Below, piece by piece: positions 1-11,866 of a DNA stretch of 64,000 bases. How positions within the stretch are numbered: the first letter of the stretch is position 1; the number at the start of each line of letters is the position of its first letter. The DNA is from Pyruvatibacter mobilis (GTDB taxonomy: Bacteria; Pseudomonadota; Alphaproteobacteria; CGMCC-115125), in NCBI RefSeq assembly GCF_012848855.1, contig NZ_CP051630.1:1-64000 (forward strand), read 5' to 3'. The notes below the pieces were generated by a model, which ran no database searches, was not told where the DNA came from, and saw only the letters and a list, made by a program, of their open reading frames with translations. The position numbers and the translations under genes are program-made.

Positions 1-1434
1 GGGTTTTTCCCAACGCAGCCACTCTGTATCGAAGCTATATTGTTCACGAGCATATTCGTGACAATCAACAGAGAACTTGGCGTTATAGTGACTGGCCACC
101 TGATAGCAGGCGTCACAGGTATAGTAATCGTGGGCAATTACAAGGTCTGCTTTTAGTTTCGGGTTCTGCCTTACCAAATTCCAGAGATGTAATCTGATGT
201 TGAGGTAGAGTGGGTGTCCCAGCTGGTAAGTATGTGGGGCCCACCTGAACAGGAACCTGGGGCGGCCAAAAACCATCAGAACTCTGGATACCTTGCGAGT
301 GAGCGCCAGCAGGCCGTTGAAAACTGGCGTGAAAGCATATGAGGATGGCAGGCGAACGTATGTCCACTCGACCGGTCTGGGGGAATGTCCGTCAAAGCCG
401 CAAACAACGACCCGCCAGCCATCATCCATAAGAGCCTTGGCTTGGCGCAGAACACGCGGTTCATTAGACACGCCTGTATAGGAGACAATCCAGGCTGTTC
501 TCTTTCCAGAATTGGGGCTTAGGTGGTCTGGGTTTAGATGCAGATTCGCAACAGTGTGTTCATTCTGTGCTATAGTTTTAAAAACCAGTGACATAATTCT
601 ATGTCGCCAATAAGCTCGGGTGAAATATCTTATTGATTTTGTATTTGGGTCAAATATTAATTCTCTCGCATTGAACGGGAATGATATTTTTATAGTAGAA
701 ATGAAAATTGCGAAATATAGGCCTATAGCCAATAATTTTTGATTTAGAGTAGCCGTGCTCGCGCCGGCGAACAAGATAAGGTGTATGATCCACAGAGAAG
801 ATGATATCAAGGCAAATGGTATTATTAGGGGGGGGGCAGACCTTGATCTGATATTATTTTGCTCAAATATGTTAAGCGCGATTAGTGTGAGTGTTGATAT
901 GAATGTAGATATTACTGCTCCAACCATGTTGCTCTGTAATTCTCCTATCGGGAAAACTAAAATCGAACTTATAAAGAAGGCAATAGAGGAGAAGGCTATA
1001 TACATCGAAATTATAAATGATTCCAATTTTAGTCTTAGATTTTCTCTCGCTTTCTGTATCGAATATAGCGTTGTTACAATGATCACTGTAGGGAAAAAAT
1101 AATATATATACCTTTTTTTCTCTATGATAATCGGGATAATTTCATTTATAAGTAAAAATATAAATGTAGACGCTGGTGATATTTTTATCGCCGGTATTAT
1201 TAATCCTTTTTCATTTATATTATGGGACTTAAAAGTTATGAAAATTGACAGGTAGGCGATAAATGATGTTGCCCATTCCGATATATGTATATTTTCAAAT
1301 GTTATTTCTTTTTTTATTATCTGCCCTATAATAAAACATGTAGGGTATATTGATACAGATGCAAATAGATGCCAAGATATCACGCGCAAGCTGCTAATTT
1401 TTCTCATGTCCATTTTTTCTTTGAGATTTTGCAT
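1..1434 (-). CDS. Membrane domain fused to GT4-like glycosyltransferase (3' end beyond window)
   Basis: A single open frame runs from ATG at 1434 to the window edge: reading + triplets from base 1, no tta, cta or tca occurs before 1456. Residues 1–280 are strongly hydrophobic with about seven or eight predicted membrane segments and are very AT-rich. From about residue 310 a soluble domain begins with KRTAWIVSYTGVSNEPRVLR, the typical opening of GT4/GT-B glycosyltransferases (xDPRVxRxAxxLxxxG, then VVVCGFDG), and carries on through HDYYTCDA and DCHEYAREQ to residue 478. The start is 2 bases after the stop of the upstream gene, so it is the last visible gene of the exporter operon. An internal ATG at 594 could make the glycosyltransferase part alone. 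Role inferred: membrane-bound sugar transfer during polysaccharide assembly. The in-frame joining of the two halves was read directly; its function is not known to me. Confidence 0.72.
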   Translation of the reverse strand, partial: MQNLKEKMDMRKISSLRVISWHLFASVSIYPTCFIIGQIIKKEITFENIHISEWATSFIAYLSIFITFKSHNINEKGLIIPAIKISPASTFIFLLINEIIPIIIEKKRYIYYFFPTVIIVTTLYSIQKARENLRLKLESFIISMYIAFSSIAFFISSILVFPIGELQSNMVGAVISTFISTLTLIALNIFEQNNIRSRSAPPLIIPFALISSSLWIIHLILFAGASTATLNQKLLAIGLYFAIFISTIKISFPFNARELIFDPNTKSIRYFTRAYWRHRIMSLVFKTIAQNEHTVANLHLNPDHLSPNSGKRTAWIVSYTGVSNEPRVLRQAKALMDDGWRVVVCGFDGHSPRPVEWTYVRLPSSYAFTPVFNGLLALTRKVSRVLMVFGRPRFLFRWAPHTYQLGHPLYLNIRLHLWNLVRQNPKLKADLVIAHDYYTCDACYQVASHYNAKFSVDCHEYAREQYSFDTEWLRWEKP

Positions 1435-1436
1435 GG

Positions 1437-2759
1437 CTAGAGTTCTTTGTTTTGTCTAACTAGCATATTTACTTCTTCGGGATCGGATATTTGGCCTGAA
1501 AGCACACGGTTAGCCCAGTTTGTTAGCGGTTCTCCTTCGAGCCTTTCTTCTGACCGACCTAGTCGAAGAGTCTCGCGAGCGAGGCTTTGTTTGTGGGCTG
1601 CTTCCGTTGCTTTCTGCTGTTCACGTGTTAGCGGAGGGCTCTTATGCAACTTTGCCTTGCTTTGGAAAAAGTCGAGAACTGTCTTGACCATCGTGCTTAT
1701 GCGAAAGTCCTGTGATTCAACAAGGTGAGTGTAAGCGCGATCGATCATGGCTCTAACTTCACCGGTATCTGACATCCTGGTGAAGGCCTCGTCCAAATTC
1801 GACATATCAGCTGCGACGGGTATGTAATGTTCATGAGGGCGTATAACGCCCCTGTAAGGATTCTCTATGAGAACCTGGCCGCATCCCATGATTGCTGCTT
1901 CAAAGATCCGTGGGCCAAATCCAGGAAATTCGTGCAGACCGTCCAGGCCCAGAAAGCATGCCTGTTCAATTTCCTCGAAACTCGCTTCCGGGTTCTCTGC
2001 AACATAGTCGTTTACGGAGTCCTGAATGACGCCATAAGGGTCCCAGACGCTGTGCCCGCCTGGTGCACCGATTATGAACTTGCAGTTTCCAAGAAAGGTG
2101 CACCAGTCATTTCCGTTCAGTGTGTCCGAAGGGTCGACCGAAATACTCGCGGGCAATTCGCGCTCAATGCACTCTTGCTTGAACTTCTGTGCCATCAGGC
2201 CTTTGAGTCGGCTAAGCCGACCGCCCCAGGCGGGGTACATCGTCACCCTTTGCCCTATGACATAATCGCGGGCTTCGTATGGGCGGCGGTGTTTCTTCAG
2301 CCGTTCGACATCGTCATCATCTATGAAACCTGAGTATGTAGAAATAAAATCGGCGCTTTTCGAGGTAATGGGGTAGATCAGGTCTTTCTTTTCTGGCCGA
2401 ACCGAGAAAACACAATCCACCTGTAACCAGTTGAGAAGCAAATCGAGCACTCCGCCGCAAGAGGCGTCATCTTGTGGAAACGCAATTTTGATTGCCCTTG
2501 TATTCCGCAGAAAAGTGTAACGGTCTCGTATCTGGGCAGTACGACTACGTGGCCGTAGCGTAACAATTCCTAAGGACGTACTGTCGAAAATCACCAAGTC
2601 CCAATCAACTGATCGCATGGCATCTGTTGGTGGAAGCATAATGCGATGATATATATAAAAGTCATCAGGATTCTGTCGCTGAAAACTGTATATGAAATCT
2701 GTGATTGTCTTTCGCGTTTCGAACATATTTTCTACATTGTGAATCACAAGAATATTCAT
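1437..2759 (-). CDS. CgeB-like glycosyltransferase family protein
   Basis: 440 residues. The N-terminal half is a Rossmann-like domain (MNILVIHNVENM, then DLVIFDSTS). The C-terminal half resembles the CgeB/Glyco_trans_1_2 type: WCTFLGNCKFIIGAPGGHSV around residues 215–235, then RIFEAAIMGCGQVLIENPYR and HYIPVAADMSNLDEAF, the usual nucleotide-sugar-binding pattern in which an acidic residue sits in a 'FEAAxxG' stretch. A charged tail (about residues 375–440) may be a coiled coil or docking region. It lies 1 base after the SGNH hydrolase gene and 2 bases before the membrane/GT fusion, so the three are surely co-transcribed. It shares its overall pattern with the protein at 14045–15259. Sugar specificity cannot be read. 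Confidence 0.7.
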   Translation of the reverse strand: MNILVIHNVENMFETRKTITDFIYSFQRQNPDDFYIYHRIMLPPTDAMRSVDWDLVIFDSTSLGIVTLRPRSRTAQIRDRYTFLRNTRAIKIAFPQDDASCGGVLDLLLNWLQVDCVFSVRPEKKDLIYPITSKSADFISTYSGFIDDDDVERLKKHRRPYEARDYVIGQRVTMYPAWGGRLSRLKGLMAQKFKQECIERELPASISVDPSDTLNGNDWCTFLGNCKFIIGAPGGHSVWDPYGVIQDSVNDYVAENPEASFEEIEQACFLGLDGLHEFPGFGPRIFEAAIMGCGQVLIENPYRGVIRPHEHYIPVAADMSNLDEAFTRMSDTGEVRAMIDRAYTHLVESQDFRISTMVKTVLDFFQSKAKLHKSPPLTREQQKATEAAHKQSLARETLRLGRSEERLEGEPLTNWANRVLSGQISDPEEVNMLVRQNKEL

Positions 2760-2760
2760 T

Positions 2761-3462
2761 TTACTTAACTTTTATTCCAAATTCGTTCTTCAATACCTTT
2801 GAGAAAACTGGTTTTACAGTTGCGTGGTAAAGATTGTGGCCTTCGAGGCTTAAGTGCAGATTGTCCTCAAGGAGAAGTTGGCCAAGTTTGTCACGATCAT
2901 TTTTTGTAGCGTTAAGGAAAGAAGTTTCAATGTCAATAAGGGTGATCTTTTCGCGCAAGGAAGAGCGAGCGGCCAGATCACGGACGATATTGTTGTATTC
3001 CCTGTTCTTGTCTTCGTAGGTGTTTTGAGAAAAGGGCATTGTGTCCCGATCTCTCAAAGTTGGGTGATTTGTGTTCAGTACTATGCCTTTGGCTCCGAAT
3101 GACAATGCTCTTGTACAGATCTCTTCAAGGTTTGCTGCAAAAGCTGCTGGGCTGACTCTTGGGTGCCCGCGGTCCGACTCCCATTGATTGCAGTCATTCA
3201 GGCCAAATTGTGCCAGTAATAGGTCGACGCCGTTCGACTGAACATCATAGGGCATGCGTTCGAGGGCTTGTCGTGTGGTATTGCCATTGATCGAAGCGTT
3301 GACGATAACAGCGCGGTCACCATGTGGATCCATTGCTGCGGCGAGTCTCGACACCCAACTGCGGTGCAGGGAGACACCTTGCCCAACGCAGATTGAGTCT
3401 CCAAAGAAGACGATTCGGTGTTTGGAAATAGTCATCAACGGCTTTCGTCTAGATGTCACCAT
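2761..3462 (-). CDS. SGNH/GDSL hydrolase family protein
   Basis: 233 residues with the SGNH blocks in order: block I FFGDSICVGQG (nucleophile Ser in GDS, residues about 20–30), block II Asn in NASINGNTT, block III GLNDCN, and block V DNLHLSLEGH with the Asp–His pair. The family removes or transfers acyl groups on esters and sugars. There is no clear signal peptide, so it probably acts in the cytoplasm on a glycan or lipid intermediate; deacetylation or acetyl transfer on the exported polysaccharide is an inference from context. The ATG at 3462 overlaps the end of the methyltransferase gene by 14 bases; a second ATG at 3435 (MTISKHRI) is also possible and fits the family N-terminus better. Confidence 0.8.
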   Translation of the reverse strand: MVTSRRKPLMTISKHRIVFFGDSICVGQGVSLHRSWVSRLAAAMDPHGDRAVIVNASINGNTTRQALERMPYDVQSNGVDLLLAQFGLNDCNQWESDRGHPRVSPAAFAANLEEICTRALSFGAKGIVLNTNHPTLRDRDTMPFSQNTYEDKNREYNNIVRDLAARSSLREKITLIDIETSFLNATKNDRDKLGQLLLEDNLHLSLEGHNLYHATVKPVFSKVLKNEFGIKVK

Positions 3463-4183
3463 TGAGGGTAGCTATGCATACTTGGCGCCCATTTGGGTAA
3501 AGAGATTCGCGATCCTGTTCAAAACCGTTGGGCTGCCAATTTGCAAAACGGGTCTGGTACTCAGAAAGCACTGCTGCTACCTGCGGACCATTCCACGCCA
3601 GCATGCAAAAGACTTCGTCAGCATCAAGCCGCTTAGCGAAGTGAAATCGAGGAGCGTTGTGGTAAGTAAGCGACACGCGAAGCTGGCTGCAGGCGGGGAT
3701 TGCTTTGTTTAAAAAAAGGGCAAGCCGCTGATCCACATTCGGGAAAATGTCATTGGCAACGATGACATCATATTCCTGGTCGAGAGGCACTTCATACCAA
3801 TCCTGTTGGTCTACCCTAAAAGAGGGAGGCGAGCCTCTAAGCTCCTCGACATGTTCGGGGCTATCATGAGCCATCAGATCCACCAGATGGTAATCATGCT
3901 GCGAAGCCAGTTTGTTTGTGAGGCAAGTGAGACCACCTCCGATGTCAAGAATTCGTTTACCCGACGTACTCAACAGGTCACCATAAAGCATAGAAAACCC
4001 AAGGCGCTTTGCCGATGAATTCATCAGCCAACGCTGACAGGTCAGTTCATGGTCTCGAGGTTTGGATATCTGTTTGATCAATTCCGCAATGCTGTCCTCG
4101 TCCATATAGGCATCAAGCATATGCTGATCCAAGTGGGTGATTGTGGAAGGCGACATGCAGATGTTTATCCTGTTGCTGTGCAT
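3449..4183 (-). CDS. Class I SAM-dependent methyltransferase
   Basis: 244 residues. Motif I is ILDIGGGLTCLT (about residues 81–92), followed by the acidic loop YHLVDLMAH and the post-II strand DVIVANDIFPNVD, as in small-molecule class I methyltransferases. The substrate is unknown. In an operon with Wzm/Wzt and a sulfotransferase, a natural reading is O-methylation of a sugar residue, possibly the chain-ending cap recognised by the Wzt C-terminal domain, but that is inference. The start lies 2 bases after the sulfotransferase stop; MSPSTITHL at residue 11 is an alternative start. Confidence 0.75.
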   Translation of the reverse strand: MHSNRINICMSPSTITHLDQHMLDAYMDEDSIAELIKQISKPRDHELTCQRWLMNSSAKRLGFSMLYGDLLSTSGKRILDIGGGLTCLTNKLASQHDYHLVDLMAHDSPEHVEELRGSPPSFRVDQQDWYEVPLDQEYDVIVANDIFPNVDQRLALFLNKAIPACSQLRVSLTYHNAPRFHFAKRLDADEVFCMLAWNGPQVAAVLSEYQTRFANWQPNGFEQDRESLYPNGRQVCIATLNGDI

Positions 4184-4185
4184 GG

Positions 4186-5142
4186 CTATTTGGTCGGATA
4201 GCGGCAGTTTGTCAGGCGCGTGCTTGTTGCCGCAATGTACTGTTCAATTGCCTTATCGTCTTCCGGAGAAAGCGACGTTGAGATTGATTTTGTTGGTTCG
4301 TGTCGCCGTAGCTGAGATTCAGTGAGGCATGCTCCAAGTTCTGGGGCGGCCGAGGCCAATTGACTCAGGGTCTGTTCCTCATCCTCAAGTAAATCCTCAT
4401 ACCAGACTTCAGTGATATGCTGCTTGCCGGCCATACTTATATGGTCCTGGATCGCGCGGGCAAACTCATACTGGTTTTCAACAACCTGCTCCCAATACGG
4501 GCGGGTTTTAAGATGCGGGTAGTTCCTTGGTGTCGCTGAATTCCAAGCCGTAGGAAGCTTTTTGGTTATATAGCGGGCTTGGAGGTCTGATTTGGCAGCC
4601 GCAGCTATGTCCCTTCTAAGCCAGATGAATTTTGAGTTCGGGAACGTCTGGTGAAGGTAGTCAAGACGAAAGCAATTCCACGCATTCTTGATGAGAAGCG
4701 GTCTGGAAAACAGAACTTCGGCTGCTGCCAAGGTTTGGATCATGTGTTCTTCTTTGCCATGTATTACATGACGACTGGTGATTTCCGATGGATGTCCTCC
4801 GCCGAACCAATTGGTCATGACGGCGGAAGCTTCTGATGGCTGAAAGAGGCCGACTGTTTTTCCGAATGCACTGGAGGTGTCTATCAATTGGTTCTGACAC
4901 CACGACCTCTGGATGGATAGTCCCAGAATTGGGTGATGGGGGAAGTGTTCATTCGTGAAATTTGAAATGAACGGTAGGCCAAATGTTCCGACTAGCAGTT
5001 GGTAAGCATAGGTGCTGCCAGTGCGGGGAGAAGCAATCAGAAAGACCGGAGCTGGGCTTGTGTCTTGCGAGCTTCCTTTCTCCAAAAGAATTTGCTCCAT
5101 GGCATCCAGCGAAGTGATGGAGCCCGTACTACCCTTGCTCAT
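4186..5142 (-). CDS. Sulfotransferase family protein
   Basis: 318 residues from the chosen start. The 5'-phosphosulfate-binding loop is LIASPRTGSTYAYQLL (about residues 34–49) and the 3'-phosphate-binding part is FIWLRRDIAAAAKS near residue 180, the two signatures of PAPS-dependent sulfotransferases. Expected reaction: transfer of sulfate from PAPS to a hydroxyl or amino group of a sugar. I chose ATG 5142 because it overlaps the stop of the wzt-like gene as ATGA; a start at 5160 adds six residues. Placed between exporter and methyltransferase, it probably decorates the exported glycan. No PAPS synthesis genes are in the window. Confidence 0.78.
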   Translation of the reverse strand: MSKGSTGSITSLDAMEQILLEKGSSQDTSPAPVFLIASPRTGSTYAYQLLVGTFGLPFISNFTNEHFPHHPILGLSIQRSWCQNQLIDTSSAFGKTVGLFQPSEASAVMTNWFGGGHPSEITSRHVIHGKEEHMIQTLAAAEVLFSRPLLIKNAWNCFRLDYLHQTFPNSKFIWLRRDIAAAAKSDLQARYITKKLPTAWNSATPRNYPHLKTRPYWEQVVENQYEFARAIQDHISMAGKQHITEVWYEDLLEDEEQTLSQLASAAPELGACLTESQLRRHEPTKSISTSLSPEDDKAIEQYIAATSTRLTNCRYPTK

Positions 5143-6551
5143 TCCGGTTCGGTTTCCCAATGTGCCGGGTGGTGAAACAGGGCCGGTTCGGAATTCGTCT
5201 TTGGATGAACCTTGATCTTGAAGCTGCGAGACAGCAGGTCGTAACGTACCACGTTGTTGGTGTCGTCCGGATCAAACTCTTTGAACAGACCAACCGAGAA
5301 AACAAACTCTCCCTTAGCCAGCATAGTTTCAGGATAAACAAGCTTAACGGTGGTATTCTCGCCCTCCTTCATATTCCTTTCGAATTCTGGGCTCAGGTGA
5401 CGGGACAGTCCTACTCCTTCAAGTGACATAACGAGAATGGACAACTTGAAAAAAAAGTGACCATCGTGTTCAGCAGACACATCTACTTCAATTGTCATTG
5501 GTTGGCCGCTGTCTATCATGCCGTTGACAAGGCCTTTTTGATCACGAACCTCAACTCGGGAAATCTTCATGCCGTGCTCGCCTGGCCAGCGTGAAACTGT
5601 GTCTGTCGTGCTGTCAGCATTTGTGACTAATTTCATCAACTGGTCCTTCTGCCAGTCAGGTGTGTCGTAGTCACGCTGTTCTTCGCTAGAGGCTTTTTCC
5701 ACGTTGTCAGGAGCAGCTAAAGCCAGCTTCGCTTGTCGCTGTTGCTGGAAGGAGAGTTCCTGAACGTATTCCTCATACGCCTTGACAACTTCCAGCGCCT
5801 TGCCCTCCATTCTCACACTACCGCCGTCGAGCCAGAGGGCATCCTCGCAAAACTGGAGGACCTGGGCGGATGAATGTGAAACGAGCAGCAGAGTGCAGCC
5901 GGACTTCGTTAAGCGCTCCATCCGATGGGCCGATTTCGCAGCGAAGTAACTGTCTCCGGCGCCCATGATCTCATCAATTATCAGGATATCAGGCCTAATT
6001 GCCGTTGCTGTCGCGAACTGCAGGCGTGCATTCATGCCCAATGAGTATGTCTTCATCGGCTGGTGCAGAAAGTCACCGAGTTCCACGAAATCGATGATGT
6101 CTTCCATCGCTTCCGTCAGCGCCTTTGGGTCCAGACCATTGTAAGCAAGAGCAGCACGGATATTGTCATATCCGGTGAATTCCGGGTGGAAGCCTATTCC
6201 AAGCTGCATAAGTGCCTGCACGGAACCATTGACTTGCACATTACCTGTGGTTGGCGCGAAGTTCCGGGTAATGAGTTTCAGCAGTGTAGTCTTGCCAGCT
6301 CCGTTCCTTCCAACAATGCCAAGGCGATCACCGGCAGGAATGCGGATGCTGACATTGTTCAGTGCCCTGAATTCTCGGAAATTCGGTGGTGACCGCCAGA
6401 ACATAAACTTGGAGACTCCGCTTTGGTGCAAGAGTTGTTCTCCCTGGCTGTCATAAAGGTTGTAAACTTTGGACACATTTGACAGCTCCACAGCTAAATC
6501 TGTCTTGCGTTCAGTGGAATACGGAGGGTCTGAAGCTTTTATCTTAGGCAT
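5139..6551 (-). CDS. wzt: Polysaccharide ABC exporter ATP-binding protein, Wzt type with C-terminal domain
   Basis: 470 residues from ATG 6551, which overlaps the permease stop by 8 bases (ATGCCTAA); the longer start at 6596 is buried in the permease gene. Walker A GRNGAGKTT (81–89), the degenerate signature YSLGMNARLQ (169–178) typical of the Wzt/KpsT subfamily, and Walker B ILIIDEIMGAGD (189–200). A long spacer (about 265–325) leads to a beta-rich region (about 325–465, MKISRVEVRD to SRSFKIKV) matching the Wzt_C carbohydrate-binding domain that in O-antigen exporters reads the modified non-reducing end of the chain. It works with the permease encoded just upstream to move undecaprenyl-linked glycan to the periplasm. 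Confidence 0.9.
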   Translation of the reverse strand: MPKIKASDPPYSTERKTDLAVELSNVSKVYNLYDSQGEQLLHQSGVSKFMFWRSPPNFREFRALNNVSIRIPAGDRLGIVGRNGAGKTTLLKLITRNFAPTTGNVQVNGSVQALMQLGIGFHPEFTGYDNIRAALAYNGLDPKALTEAMEDIIDFVELGDFLHQPMKTYSLGMNARLQFATATAIRPDILIIDEIMGAGDSYFAAKSAHRMERLTKSGCTLLLVSHSSAQVLQFCEDALWLDGGSVRMEGKALEVVKAYEEYVQELSFQQQRQAKLALAAPDNVEKASSEEQRDYDTPDWQKDQLMKLVTNADSTTDTVSRWPGEHGMKISRVEVRDQKGLVNGMIDSGQPMTIEVDVSAEHDGHFFFKLSILVMSLEGVGLSRHLSPEFERNMKEGENTTVKLVYPETMLAKGEFVFSVGLFKEFDPDDTNNVVRYDLLSRSFKIKVHPKTNSEPALFHHPAHWETEPE

Positions 6552-7371
6552 AGTCGTAGAACGCGCTCTTTGACGAAATACAAATTCTGTACCCAAAAAT
6601 AAAAGTGGCGAAGCTAATTGCCACCATGGGAATTGTAATCGATATAGGAGGTATCTTATTCAGCATTATAAGGTTTTGAAATGATATTACAAAGTAGGAC
6701 AGAGGGTTAACATAAATAAGAGCTGCGACTTGACGTGGCATCATGCTTGGTGTGTATGCTATTGGTGTGATGACCATCAGCATCATTATTGAGTAATATA
6801 TGATTTGTTGTATATCTCGCATTAGAAGTGCAACAAGAGAAAGTATCCAGCATAGCCCTGTTACAAACATTAGTTGTAGCAACATTACGATGGGAACTAA
6901 TGCTATGGTGGCCGTCGTCTTGCTAAGAAAAAAGTCTCCCGCCAAAACAATGGTTATCCCGACGGGCATAAATATGCTAGCGCTCAGCACGCTTCTGAGT
7001 GGGATTAGTTCTGCCGGAAATACGGTATTCAACAGTACAGACCTATTTGAAACAAGAGAAAGTGTTCCTGCGGTAACTGCACCTGAGAAGGATATGAATG
7101 AGGCTAGACCGCAGAATACATAAAGAATGTATTCTGTTACGCCCATATCGGGCGGGCGGATTCGGAAGATAACTGCATATGTGAAAGAGTAGACGAATAG
7201 CATTACTATAGGTCCGAGAATAGCCCATAATATACCAAGTATAGAACCTGCATATATACCTTTTATATCATTTAATGTGGTCCGCAGTAAGATTTTCCTG
7301 TGCTTCAATACTTCTGAGAACGGGGTGCAAGCCCAGCTGATGAGGTTTTTTCTCTGGCGTTTCTGTGGCAT
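6544..7371 (-). CDS. wzm: Polysaccharide ABC exporter permease, Wzm type (ABC-2 family)
   Basis: 275 residues with six predicted membrane segments: WAILGPIVMLFVYSFTYAVIF, YILYVFCGLASFISF, FMPVGITIVLAG, ALVPIVMLLQLMFVTGLCW, IMMLMVITPIAYTP and ITIPMVAISFATFIFGY. The cytoplasmic N-terminus with LLRTTLNDIKGIYAGSILG, the YxGSxLGxxW pattern, is characteristic of ABC-2 polysaccharide and teichoic-acid exporters (Wzm, TagG, KpsM). It is the first gene of a minus-strand operon running to the left edge. The coding sequence is clearly AT-richer than the plus-strand genes to its right, as is common for polysaccharide genes acquired by transfer. Confidence 0.9.
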   Translation of the reverse strand: MPQKRQRKNLISWACTPFSEVLKHRKILLRTTLNDIKGIYAGSILGILWAILGPIVMLFVYSFTYAVIFRIRPPDMGVTEYILYVFCGLASFISFSGAVTAGTLSLVSNRSVLLNTVFPAELIPLRSVLSASIFMPVGITIVLAGDFFLSKTTATIALVPIVMLLQLMFVTGLCWILSLVALLMRDIQQIIYYSIMMLMVITPIAYTPSMMPRQVAALIYVNPLSYFVISFQNLIMLNKIPPISITIPMVAISFATFIFGYRICISSKSAFYDYA

Positions 7372-8013
7372 GAATTTATTTTCCGTTTCGCGCGGCTAGA
7401 ATTCTATCGAAGGTGCGCAGCATGAACTATCTAGGTCTCGTTTGGACGGTGTTCATAATGGTTATATGCGACCCCTTGGTGTCCGAGTGGCATGTGGTCT
7501 GAGGAGGCTGAATAAAAATCTTGCTTTTTGGCGGAGAGACGGGGGCTCATTTTAAGCCCGCGTCACTTTTTTTAATCAGGTTTCGATTCAGCGCTTACTG
7601 GTTTCATGCCCTTGATTTCAGAGGCTGAAGTTTGTTGATACCAGAGGTAAAGTTGCATTGCCGTGGAGGTGCATGTTTCGGAACGTAAACTATTAGTTTG
7701 TTTGCATTCTTGCCATCCAAAAAACTCTGATCTGGTATGCCGATATAGGCTAGGGGAGTCAAGCAGTGACCAGATTTGGCATTGGTGCTGAATCTACTCT
7801 TCCATTCGCGCGTCAAATCGAGCGGGATGGGCGGTCCGTGAAGGCTTTCACAGCTAAATTGATTTGGTTTGCCGCGCGGCGTGCAAATAGCCAAAAGGTG
7901 TGAAATTCAGCCGAGGCAGAATGAGCTCGGAATCGTCGATCCTTCATCGTTGGACCTGTTCGCATGAATGCTTTAGGAAGATCTGCCGATTGCGGTCATC
8001 TGGAAGTGGAAGT
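7372..8013. other. Divergent intergenic region between wzm and asnB operons
   Basis: About 640 bases with no convincing gene. It must hold promoters for both the leftward exporter operon and the rightward amidotransferase operon. It is AT-richer than the genes on its right. A weak hairpin (GGGCT…AGCCC, about 7552–7568) is followed after seven bases by seven T (7575–7581), too far away to call a terminator with confidence. A minus-strand frame at 7604–7894 (96 codons) has no family features and no ribosome binding site I trust. I could not pick out unambiguous -35/-10 boxes. Confidence 0.5.
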
Positions 8014-9963
8014 ATGTGCGGCTTTGGAGCCATTGTGGACTTAGAGCGCGACCGCAGTCACGTCTCGGCGGCTGATTTGGTCATACTAGGTCGGCTGATT
8101 GCCCATCGCGGGCCCGATGGCGAGGGCCTGTGGGTCGCGTCGCACCGGCGCGCGGGCCTGGTGCACCGACGGCTGTCGATCATCGACCTGACGGATCACG
8201 CTGCCCAGCCGATGCACAGCGGCAACGGGGTGTCCATTGCCTACAACGGCGAGACCTATAATTACCTGGAACTGCGTGAAGCGATCGGCGGGAATTGGGA
8301 GTTCACCAGCAACTCCGATACCGAAGCGGTTCTGGCGTCATACGAAATGTTTGGGACCGATTGCGTAAGCCACATGCGGGGCATGTTCGCGTTCGCGATC
8401 TGGGACGAGAAGGCACAGAAGCTGTTCTGTGCGCGCGACCGGTTCGGAATCAAGCCGTTCTATTACACGGTGGTGGACGGGGTTTTTTACTGCGCGTCCG
8501 AAGCCAAGGCGCTGCTGCCCTTCCTGCCGGATATCGAGACAGACAAGGCGGCTTTCGCCGAGTATCTGACCTTTCAGTACACCATTGGCGAGCAGACCCT
8601 GTTCAAAGGCATCAAGCAGTTGATGCCGGGCCATGCGCTGTCCGTGCAGAATGGCGAGGTCAAGGTCTGGCGTTATTGGGATGTGCACTACGACATCGAT
8701 TTCGACCATAGCCCGGCCTATTTCGAAAGTCGGTTGACGGAGCTGCTGGACGATTCAGTGCGCGTGCATCTGCGCAGTGACGTGCCGGTGGGCGCCTATG
8801 TGTCGGGCGGTATCGACTCGAGCCTGATGGGGCTTCTGGCCGCGCGCCATGACGAAGTGAACCGGCTCTCGTTCAACGGGCGGTTCACCGAATTTCCCGG
8901 GTACGACGAAAGCAATTACGCCCAAATCGTTGCTGACCGGATGAATGGCGATCTGCACATTGCAGATATCACCGCCGCCGACTTCCGCGACAACATCCGC
9001 AACGTCATCTACCACCTCGATTTCCCGGTGGCGGGTCCAGGGTCCTTTCCGCAATACATGGTGTCGAAGCTTGCGGCAGAGCATGTGAAGGTGGTGCTGG
9101 GCGGCCAGGGTGGTGACGAGATTTTCGGCGGCTATGCGCGTTACCTGCTCGCTTACTTCGAGCAATGTATCAAGGCGGCGATGGACGGCAACTATCGCAA
9201 CGGTAATTACGTTGTGACGATCGAATCCATCGTCCCCAACCTTGGATTGCTGCGCGAATACAAGCCAATGATGCAGCAGTTCTGGAAGGAAGGTTTGTTC
9301 GGCCCGCTGGACGAGCGCTACTTCCGGCTTGTTGACCGTTCGACCGACATGACCGACGAGGTGGACTGGTCGGAACTTGATCAGGACGCGGTGTTCGCCA
9401 GCTTCCAATCCATCTTCAACAGCGCGCGGAATGTGGGCAAGGAAGCCTATTTCGACAGCATGACGCATTTCGACTTCAAGTGCCTGCTGCCTGCCTTGCT
9501 CCACGTGGAAGACCGCATGAGCATGGCGCATGGGCTGGAAAGCCGGGTGCCGCTCCTGGATCATGGCCTGGTCGAATTTGCGGCCACGGTGCCCGCGGAT
9601 GTGAAGTTTGAAGGCGGCCATATGAAGCACATGCTGAAGACTGCCTATGCGGATGTGATCCCGCAGGAAGTCCTGACGCGACGCGACAAGATGGGCTTCC
9701 CGGTTCCGCTGAAAGAATGGTTTGCCGGCGAGCTCAACGGCATGATGGTGGATATCTTCACCAACCTCAAAGACAGCCACAGGCCGTATATCAATGCGGA
9801 TACGGTGCTCAACAGTTTCGACAAGGCTGCGCGGTTCTCGCGCAAGACCTGGGGGCTGTTGTCACTGGAACTATGGCACCAGGAATTCCATGACAAGGCA
9901 GCCGATTTCCGTGCCATGCGCACCGAACCGGCGTCGATTGAAGCAGAGAAGGTAGGCGCATGA
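8014..9963 (+). CDS. AsnB-type glutamine-dependent amidotransferase (asparagine synthase family)
   Basis: 649 residues starting at MCGFGAI, so that Cys2 becomes the Ntn nucleophile after Met removal; the frame is open further upstream but that extension would block the active site. The N-terminal glutaminase domain (1–about 210) has AYNGETYNY and CARDRFGIKPFYY. The synthetase domain has the PP-loop YVSGGIDSS (about 262–270) and LGGQGGDEIFGGYARY. Enzymes of this family make asparagine or, in polysaccharide loci (Bordetella WbmE, Pseudomonas WbpS), are thought to convert sugar uronic acids to uronamides. As the first gene of a sugar-epimerase operon, amidation of a uronic acid is the likelier role. 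It overlaps the next gene by ATGA. Confidence 0.88.
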   Translation: MCGFGAIVDLERDRSHVSAADLVILGRLIAHRGPDGEGLWVASHRRAGLVHRRLSIIDLTDHAAQPMHSGNGVSIAYNGETYNYLELREAIGGNWEFTSNSDTEAVLASYEMFGTDCVSHMRGMFAFAIWDEKAQKLFCARDRFGIKPFYYTVVDGVFYCASEAKALLPFLPDIETDKAAFAEYLTFQYTIGEQTLFKGIKQLMPGHALSVQNGEVKVWRYWDVHYDIDFDHSPAYFESRLTELLDDSVRVHLRSDVPVGAYVSGGIDSSLMGLLAARHDEVNRLSFNGRFTEFPGYDESNYAQIVADRMNGDLHIADITAADFRDNIRNVIYHLDFPVAGPGSFPQYMVSKLAAEHVKVVLGGQGGDEIFGGYARYLLAYFEQCIKAAMDGNYRNGNYVVTIESIVPNLGLLREYKPMMQQFWKEGLFGPLDERYFRLVDRSTDMTDEVDWSELDQDAVFASFQSIFNSARNVGKEAYFDSMTHFDFKCLLPALLHVEDRMSMAHGLESRVPLLDHGLVEFAATVPADVKFEGGHMKHMLKTAYADVIPQEVLTRRDKMGFPVPLKEWFAGELNGMMVDIFTNLKDSHRPYINADTVLNSFDKAARFSRKTWGLLSLELWHQEFHDKAADFRAMRTEPASIEAEKVGA

Positions 9964-10904
9964 AGGTCTTCGTGACGGGTGGCTGCGGCCAGGTCGGGTC
10001 GCATGTGGTGGAAATGGCGCTGGAGCGCGGTGACGACGTGGTGGCGATCGATGATCTGTCTACCGGCCGCCGCATTCATTTGCCCGAGAGCCAGGACCGC
10101 CTGACCGTCGTGGAGGGATCAATCGCAGACCAGGGGCTAGTCAATCAGCTTATCGGCGACTTCAAACCCGATACGCTGGTTCACACGGCGGCCTCCTACA
10201 AGGATCCGGATGATTGGTACAATGACACGCTCACCAATTGTGTCGGCGGTACGAACCTCATTCGTGCGGCACTCGACAACAATGTCGGCCGATTTGTCTA
10301 TTTTCAGACGGCGCTTTGCTATGGCGTGAAGCCGTCGGAGAATCCGGTCACGCTGAACCACCCGAAGAACCCGGCCAATTCTTCATACGCGATTTCTAAA
10401 ACGGCGGCGGAAGACTATCTGGAGATTTCGGGCCTCGACCACGTGATTTTCCGGCTTGCCAATGTGGTGGGCCCGCGAAATGTGTCCGGCCCGCTGCCGA
10501 TCTTTTATCAGCGCCTGTCGGAAGGCAAAAAGTGCTTCGTTACCAAGGCGCGACGCGACTTCGTGTTCGTGAAAGACCTGGCTCGCAACGTCCTCAAGGC
10601 GATGGATGGGACTGGCCATGGTGCCTATCACTTCTCGTCCGGCACCGACGTGGCGATCAAGGAGCTCTATGACGCCGTGGTGGAAGCCATGCAGCTCAAT
10701 GACTATCCCGAACCCGACATCCGTGACCTCGGCGAAGACGATGCGGCTTCAATCCTTCTGGATCCGTCACGGACCTTCCAGGACTTCGGTGACATCGAGT
10801 TCACACCGCTGAAGGAAACCGTCAAGGCCGCCATCGACTATTACAATGAGTTCGGCGCTGCGGGTGGCTATACGCACCTCAAGATCGAAGAGAACAAGAG
10901 CTAG
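9960..10904 (+). CDS. NAD-dependent SDR epimerase, WbmG/WbmH-like
   Basis: 314 residues, extended SDR fold. NAD-binding motif GGCGQVGSH (residues 7–15), IDDLSTG after the second strand, and the catalytic Tyr-Lys pair in SSYAISKTAAE (about 141–151). The overlap with asnB (ATGA) indicates translational coupling. It resembles the next gene closely along its whole length (for example HFQTALCYG/YFQTALCYG and PIFYQRLSEGK/PTFYQRLKAGK), so the two are tandem paralogues. A tandem pair of about 310-residue SDR proteins plus a 350-residue one behind an AsnB-type gene is how the Bordetella wbmE–wbmH block is arranged as I remember it, where these enzymes are thought to epimerise UDP-2,3-diacetamido-hexuronic acids. 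Exact reaction inferred only. Confidence 0.82.
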   Translation: MKVFVTGGCGQVGSHVVEMALERGDDVVAIDDLSTGRRIHLPESQDRLTVVEGSIADQGLVNQLIGDFKPDTLVHTAASYKDPDDWYNDTLTNCVGGTNLIRAALDNNVGRFVYFQTALCYGVKPSENPVTLNHPKNPANSSYAISKTAAEDYLEISGLDHVIFRLANVVGPRNVSGPLPIFYQRLSEGKKCFVTKARRDFVFVKDLARNVLKAMDGTGHGAYHFSSGTDVAIKELYDAVVEAMQLNDYPEPDIRDLGEDDAASILLDPSRTFQDFGDIEFTPLKETVKAAIDYYNEFGAAGGYTHLKIEENKS

Positions 10905-10933
10905 AGGCCGGGCTGGCCAGGCGGGACTGACAC

Positions 10934-11866
10934 ATGCGTATCCTCATGACTGGCGGGGCGGGTTGCCTCGGCTCCAACCTCATTGACCGGTATTTGCCCA
11001 AAGGGCATGAGATCTTGGTGATCGACAATTACGCCACGGGCAAGGCCGGCAATCTGCCGCCTGTGGAGGGGTTGACGGTCATTGAAGGATCAATCGTCGA
11101 TCAGAGGTTGGTGGACAAGGCCTTCGATGACTTCAAGCCGGACGTCGTGATCCATTCGGCGGCTGCTTACAAAGATCCGGTCGACTGGGCCAGTGATGCG
11201 GAAACCAATGTGCGCGGCACGATCAATGTGGGTCAGGCTGCCCAGCGACTTGACGTTGCGCGGCTCATCCATTTCCAGACCGCGCTTTGCTATGGCCGCC
11301 CGGATACGGTTCCGATCCCCGTGGACCATCCGACCCGTCCGTTCACCAGCTACGGCATCTCCAAGACAGCGGGAGAGCAATACTTGCAGATGACAGGTCT
11401 GCCCGTCGTGTCGCTGCGTCTTGCCAATGTGACAGGCCCGCGGCTTGCAATCGGCCCGATCCCGACCTTTTACCAGCGCCTGAAGGCAGGCAAATCGTGT
11501 TTCTGCTCAGAAACGGTGCGCGATTTCCTCGATATGGACGACTTCTTTTCGTTGATGGATAAGGCTCTTGTGCCCGGGGCGGCGACGGGGATTTTCAACG
11601 TGTCCACCGGTGAAGGCCATACAATCAAGGACGTGTTCAACGCGGTGGTGGATTATCTTGGTGTCACCTTGGACGAACCGGTGCCCGTCGTGCCGCCCGG
11701 CGATGACGATGTGCCGGCGGTGGTGCTTGACCCCAGCGAGACGGAAAAGGCCTTTGACTGGAAGGCCGAGATCGGTTTCACCGAGACGATTAACCGGATG
11801 CTGGCCTGGTACGACAAGCACGGGGTGACGGATGTTTTCAGTCACCTGGCCGCGCCCAAATCCTGA
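10934..11866 (+). CDS. NAD-dependent SDR epimerase, tandem paralogue of preceding gene
   Basis: 310 residues. GGAGCLGSN (7–15) binds NAD; IDNYATG follows strand 2; the YxxxK catalytic pair lies in TSYGISKTAGE. It aligns without large gaps with the gene at 9960 and ends similarly (AIDYYNEFG/MLAWYDKHG plus a short tail). The gap to its neighbour is 29 bases. Likely a C4- or C5-epimerase on a UDP-activated diamino-uronic acid. The duplication suggests two successive epimerisations or two substrates. Confidence 0.82.
   Translation: MRILMTGGAGCLGSNLIDRYLPKGHEILVIDNYATGKAGNLPPVEGLTVIEGSIVDQRLVDKAFDDFKPDVVIHSAAAYKDPVDWASDAETNVRGTINVGQAAQRLDVARLIHFQTALCYGRPDTVPIPVDHPTRPFTSYGISKTAGEQYLQMTGLPVVSLRLANVTGPRLAIGPIPTFYQRLKAGKSCFCSETVRDFLDMDDFFSLMDKALVPGAATGIFNVSTGEGHTIKDVFNAVVDYLGVTLDEPVPVVPPGDDDVPAVVLDPSETEKAFDWKAEIGFTETINRMLAWYDKHGVTDVFSHLAAPKS

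Follow-up and report, generated by a model that had tools for sequence, protein, structure and literature searches.

An orphan membrane segment of Pyruvatibacter mobilis has probably been joined recently, at the strain level, to an ordinary GT4 glycosyltransferase, and the two parts may function as one protein. The gene is located at the left edge of the window, the 64-kb stretch of DNA analysed here, which is the beginning of a single contig of 3,333,914 bases. Its minus-strand frame (1434..1) starts with an ATG at 1434, runs for 478 codons without a stop and is still open at the left edge of the window. None of 20,000 base shuffles kept 281 codons open. The original prediction, made from the letters of the window, described about 280 residues of membrane helices joined to a GT4-like domain. 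The unbroken frame and both parts stand, but the membrane domain comprises about 254 residues and is followed by a linker of 56 residues. The prediction of structure and topology proposed at that time gave about eight helices with predicted cytoplasmic termini, then the linker and the GT-B part (Table 1).

Table 1. Features of the membrane domain–GT4 gene and its surroundings, with positions in the window.
Feature	Position	Strand	Basis
Beginning of the GT4 domain (N-terminal Rossmann half of the GT-B fold)	1..504	-	PF13579/PF13692; AF2 pLDDT >90 from residue 311; completed ORF
Linker, residues 255-310, AT-rich and charged, with the only in-frame internal ATG (594)	505..672	-	Composition and codon use; helix 266-295 predicted with low confidence
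Low-GC segment, read as foreign DNA	555..1477	.	Maximum-likelihood segment, delta log-likelihood 38; rare-codon positions
Orphan membrane domain, residues 1-254, about eight predicted helices, N and C termini predicted to be cytoplasmic	673..1434	-	Hydropathy, loop charges, low-confidence AF2 helices
Nine consecutive C of the coding strand, in frame	828..836	-	Only G/C run of at least seven in the 64-kb window
440-residue protein, no Pfam family over the cut-off	1437..2759	-	Homologue directly upstream of a stand-alone GT4 in Neomarinimicrobiota
Wzt, ABC ATPase with a Wzt_C domain	5139..6596	-	PF00005 and PF14524
Wzm, ABC-2 membrane subunit	6544..7371	-	PF01061 (ABC2_membrane)

As was found by a search of the genome against itself, the last 11,647 bases of the contig (3322268-3333914; 11.65 kb) duplicate window positions 1-11651, with indels and zero clean substitutions. 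This duplication is an untrimmed overlap of a circular replicon; several long-read assemblers leave such start-end overlaps on circular replicons (PMC6966772). The overlap supplied the 3′ end that the window lacks, together with a second reading of the gene, which is not fully independent of the window copy. The sequence to the left of the window, needed to complete the gene, was reached across the circular join; the completed gene encodes 718 residues and has its stop at contig base 3321545. The contig-end copy is short of four bases within the gene (near window positions 236-239, 256-259, 379-383 and 1094-1099), all of them in runs of four to six bases, and its frame is therefore broken, while the window copy encodes a coherent protein. 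The two copies are identical between about base 383 and base 1093. A stop or frameshift near base 594 had been named as the finding that would speak against the fusion; the frame is open there and both assembled copies agree. The genes in the 11.65-kb overlap are counted twice in the assembly, the end copy bearing frame-breaking indels. An overlap left untrimmed in a long-read assembly is a usable check on reading frames at contig ends.

The transferase occupies residues about 311-718. Pfam calls on this half were judged by gathering score, and PF13579 (residues 326-509; 43.7 bits, cut-off 29.7), PF13692 (residues 537-681; 43.4 bits, cut-off 27), PF00534 and PF13439 all lie above their cut-offs. 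By its domain content, this half is a GT4 glycosyltransferase of the GT-B fold, predicted to transfer a sugar from an NDP-sugar. The AF2 confidence leaps from about 55 to the level given in Table 1 at the start of the domain, and the fold neighbours of the model include the GT-B enzymes BshA and MshA. The comparison of the GT half with PDB sequences gave nothing at E 0.01.

Eight hydrophobic helices fall within residues 18-254 of the membrane half. The N terminus carries a positive charge, and so do most of the inner loops; loop 105-109 (EKKRY) goes against the positive-inside rule. The even number of helices and the mostly positive inner loops would put the C terminus, and with it the transferase, in the cytoplasm. 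AF2 models of this half are poor (mean pLDDT 47.5), and a fold search using the low-confidence model found nothing meaningful. No meaningful match was found in Pfam, NCBIfam, PHROGs or PDB sequences. When 59 relatives, 398 phylum genomes, plasmids, phages and viral contigs were searched as six-frame translations, only chance matches appeared, for example to a part of a Na+/H+ antiporter-like protein, and a BLASTN search of plasmids with the low-GC segment gave zero matches. The search with the membrane half alone, which had been suggested as a check, thus returned no family, and no relative in about 450 sampled genomes either.

The membrane half resembles Wzx-like flippases (PF01943) in that it is a multi-pass membrane part encoded by AT-rich DNA within a polysaccharide cluster. 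This is a resemblance only; the half has no Pfam match and its profile score is at the level of shuffled controls. Identity with a Wzx/PST flippase was rejected: PF01943 (Polysacc_synt) was not matched even at E 10, and the hhalign comparison with 16 Wzx-like proteins scored 13.0, while the reversed sequence scored 15.8 and block shuffles 10.6-14.0. The fold of these flippases needs 12-14 helices in two lobes, whereas the membrane half has about eight.

The two halves differ in composition. The GC content of the low-GC segment is 33%, compared with 49% around it; GC3 is 0.33 for residues 1-254, 0.57 for the GT half and 0.42 for wzm, a membrane gene nearby. Among the isoleucine codons, ATA makes up 33 of 52 in the membrane half and 3 of 22 in the transferase half. 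The shift in third positions and codon choice indicates that the change is not merely an effect of hydrophobic codons. Rare codons are dense up to about residue 312 and sparser after it, and GC, GC3 and rare codons switch at residue about 293-312. This switch coincides with the start of the alignment to stand-alone relatives, so the join lies nearer to base 510-555 than to base 600, where the original prediction had placed an otherwise real shift. The confidently modelled fold sets in at the same place.

The species collection of 84,980 genomes was scanned with short patterns, a method with a reach limited to close relatives, and yielded 21 GT4 loci; class and phylum samples (about 780 sampled genomes) added a few more relatives, about 25 being examined overall. 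None of these carries a membrane-GT fusion or a multi-helix extension. The original prediction treated the architecture as unfamiliar and, in line with this, no homologue with both halves was found among those examined. As to the possibility that homologues always occur as two separate genes, the GT4 is a stand-alone protein in its relatives, and none of the searches turned up a relative of the membrane half.

In P. mobilis, the GT4 is followed downstream by HisH, HisF and a WbpG-type amidotransferase. The same GT4-HisH-HisF-WbpG order with a stand-alone GT4 was found in Candidatus Accumulibacter (L009) and in Neomarinimicrobiota (L011, L012), with about 41% identity over the GT part for L009. 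These loci differ from P. mobilis by the absence of the membrane domain and by the presence of asnB or a homologue of the 440-residue protein directly upstream; in L011, this homologue overlaps the start of the GT4. No separate multi-pass membrane gene is situated beside the GT4 in the three neighbourhoods. The genus-mates are devoid of WbpG, the membrane half and a close GT4 (one has only a 27% relative of Wzm), which leaves no closely related locus for comparison. The earlier suggestion that parts of different origin were joined is supported by the sharp GC and codon switch at the point where the stand-alone alignment begins, and also by the conservation of this gene order in other phyla, where the membrane part is absent. 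Most simply, AT-rich DNA would have been inserted between the gene of the 440-residue protein and the GT4 gene.

The genes with ABC2_membrane and ABC_tran/Wzt_C domains lie in one gene run, which characterises the region as a Wzm/Wzt polysaccharide cluster. A sulfotransferase gene (PF13469; window 4186-5160) adjoins wzt, which suggests that the polysaccharide is sulfated. About 3 kb downstream lies a second WbpG-like amidotransferase gene (contig 3317790-3318855, within L003:9704-10874), which a frameshift divides between two frames; the cause is either a sequencing or assembly error or pseudogene formation and decay. The 440-residue neighbour also has a paralogue of similar size (L003:6462-7781; 25% identity). 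Relatives of both paralogues adjoin GT4 genes in other bacteria, and these proteins possibly represent an undescribed family of polysaccharide clusters.

The preferred reading of these data, to which we would give a little less than an even chance, is that a foreign segment of about 0.9 kb has turned the GT4 into one membrane-anchored enzyme of 718 residues. The AT-rich segment, coding for the eight-helix domain, would have been placed upstream of the conserved GT4, with its frame continuing stop-free into it. The product would sit in the inner membrane and expose its GT-B catalytic part to the cytoplasm, where it may add one sugar to the lipid-linked polysaccharide prior to export, the membrane part serving as an anchor only. 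The open frame, the domain content, the composition change, the syntenic stand-alone relatives and the lack of fused relatives in the searches are observed; we infer the foreign origin, the topology, single-chain translation, catalysis and anchoring. Provided that translation covers the entire frame, the most economical explanation is a cytoplasmic GT4 that is anchored to the membrane and acts ahead of Wzm/Wzt export. The original prediction went further and placed the transferase next to the Wzm/Wzt exporter, coupling assembly or capping to export. This is a conjecture with which the even number of helices, the mostly positive inner loops and the resulting cytoplasmic position of the GT domain are compatible. 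Against it stand the lack of relatives with both halves or with the membrane half, the EKKRY loop, the poor AF2 model and the possible GT start at ATG 594. The conserved GT4 of the relatives works without a membrane part, which argues against this part being necessary.

For the same reason, a rather unlikely alternative has to be taken seriously, in which the membrane part is a relic, e.g., the beginning of a transporter or polymerase gene that was truncated, and a stand-alone GT4 translated from ATG 594 (residue 281) is the working enzyme. Every GT4 relative is a stand-alone protein with its start near the conserved domain, and this ATG, the sole in-frame internal start near the join, is preceded by GGCGA nine bases upstream. 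Genes wzx and wzy are typically AT-rich, rare-codon-rich membrane genes. The membrane part has the same make-up, in a cluster that uses Wzm/Wzt and a genome without a PF01943 match. However, 281 codons are still open at 33% GC, the ATG is located within the AT-rich segment about 30 codons ahead of the conserved GT start, and the alignment comparison with the 16 Wzx-like proteins is no better than its controls. It seems still more doubtful that the fusion is an assembly error, with a base missed or added near the join masking where a membrane gene ends and the GT gene begins. The long-read-type overlap, the four bases missing from the second copy and the split WbpG-like gene, which indicates that errors or decay occur in the region, speak for such an error, as do the runs of 4-5 bases at 576-584 and 637-640 and the stops soon reached in the other frames. 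Nevertheless, the assembled copies, though not fully independent, are concordant across the join, in-frame codon use remains AT-rich through the linker and no run in the linker exceeds five bases.

The run of nine C is a possible slippage site. The helices on either side of it share one frame, so nine is a coding length. Phase variation of the gene through this run, in which one C gained or lost within the membrane part would switch the GT off or alter its start, is improbable. The genome contains six G/C runs of at least nine, and this one alone is clearly inside a gene; variable poly-G tracts have been described in Campylobacter genomes (PMC539331). At the same time, both assembled copies have nine C, and no other gene of the P. 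mobilis genome clearly possesses such a run. The combined idea of a phase-variable membrane-anchored GT4, in which slippage within an acquired orphan eight-helix module would switch the surface-sugar structure, is very improbable.

If translated as one chain, the protein would be a recent case of the conversion of a soluble polysaccharide transferase into an integral membrane enzyme by an acquired unrelated segment, in a cluster exporting through Wzm/Wzt. A literature search on flippase-GT fusions gave no paper matching all terms. In the part of the source on Klebsiella O4/O7 considered here (PMC11231755), the fused modules are a methyltransferase, a coiled-coil and a GT, with no mention of a multi-pass membrane domain. 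In the same part, ABC transporter-dependent assembly of these O-polysaccharides is described as the work of multidomain, interacting enzymes, and the P. mobilis protein is similar to them in combining a GT4 enzyme with a fused module in a Wzm/Wzt pathway.
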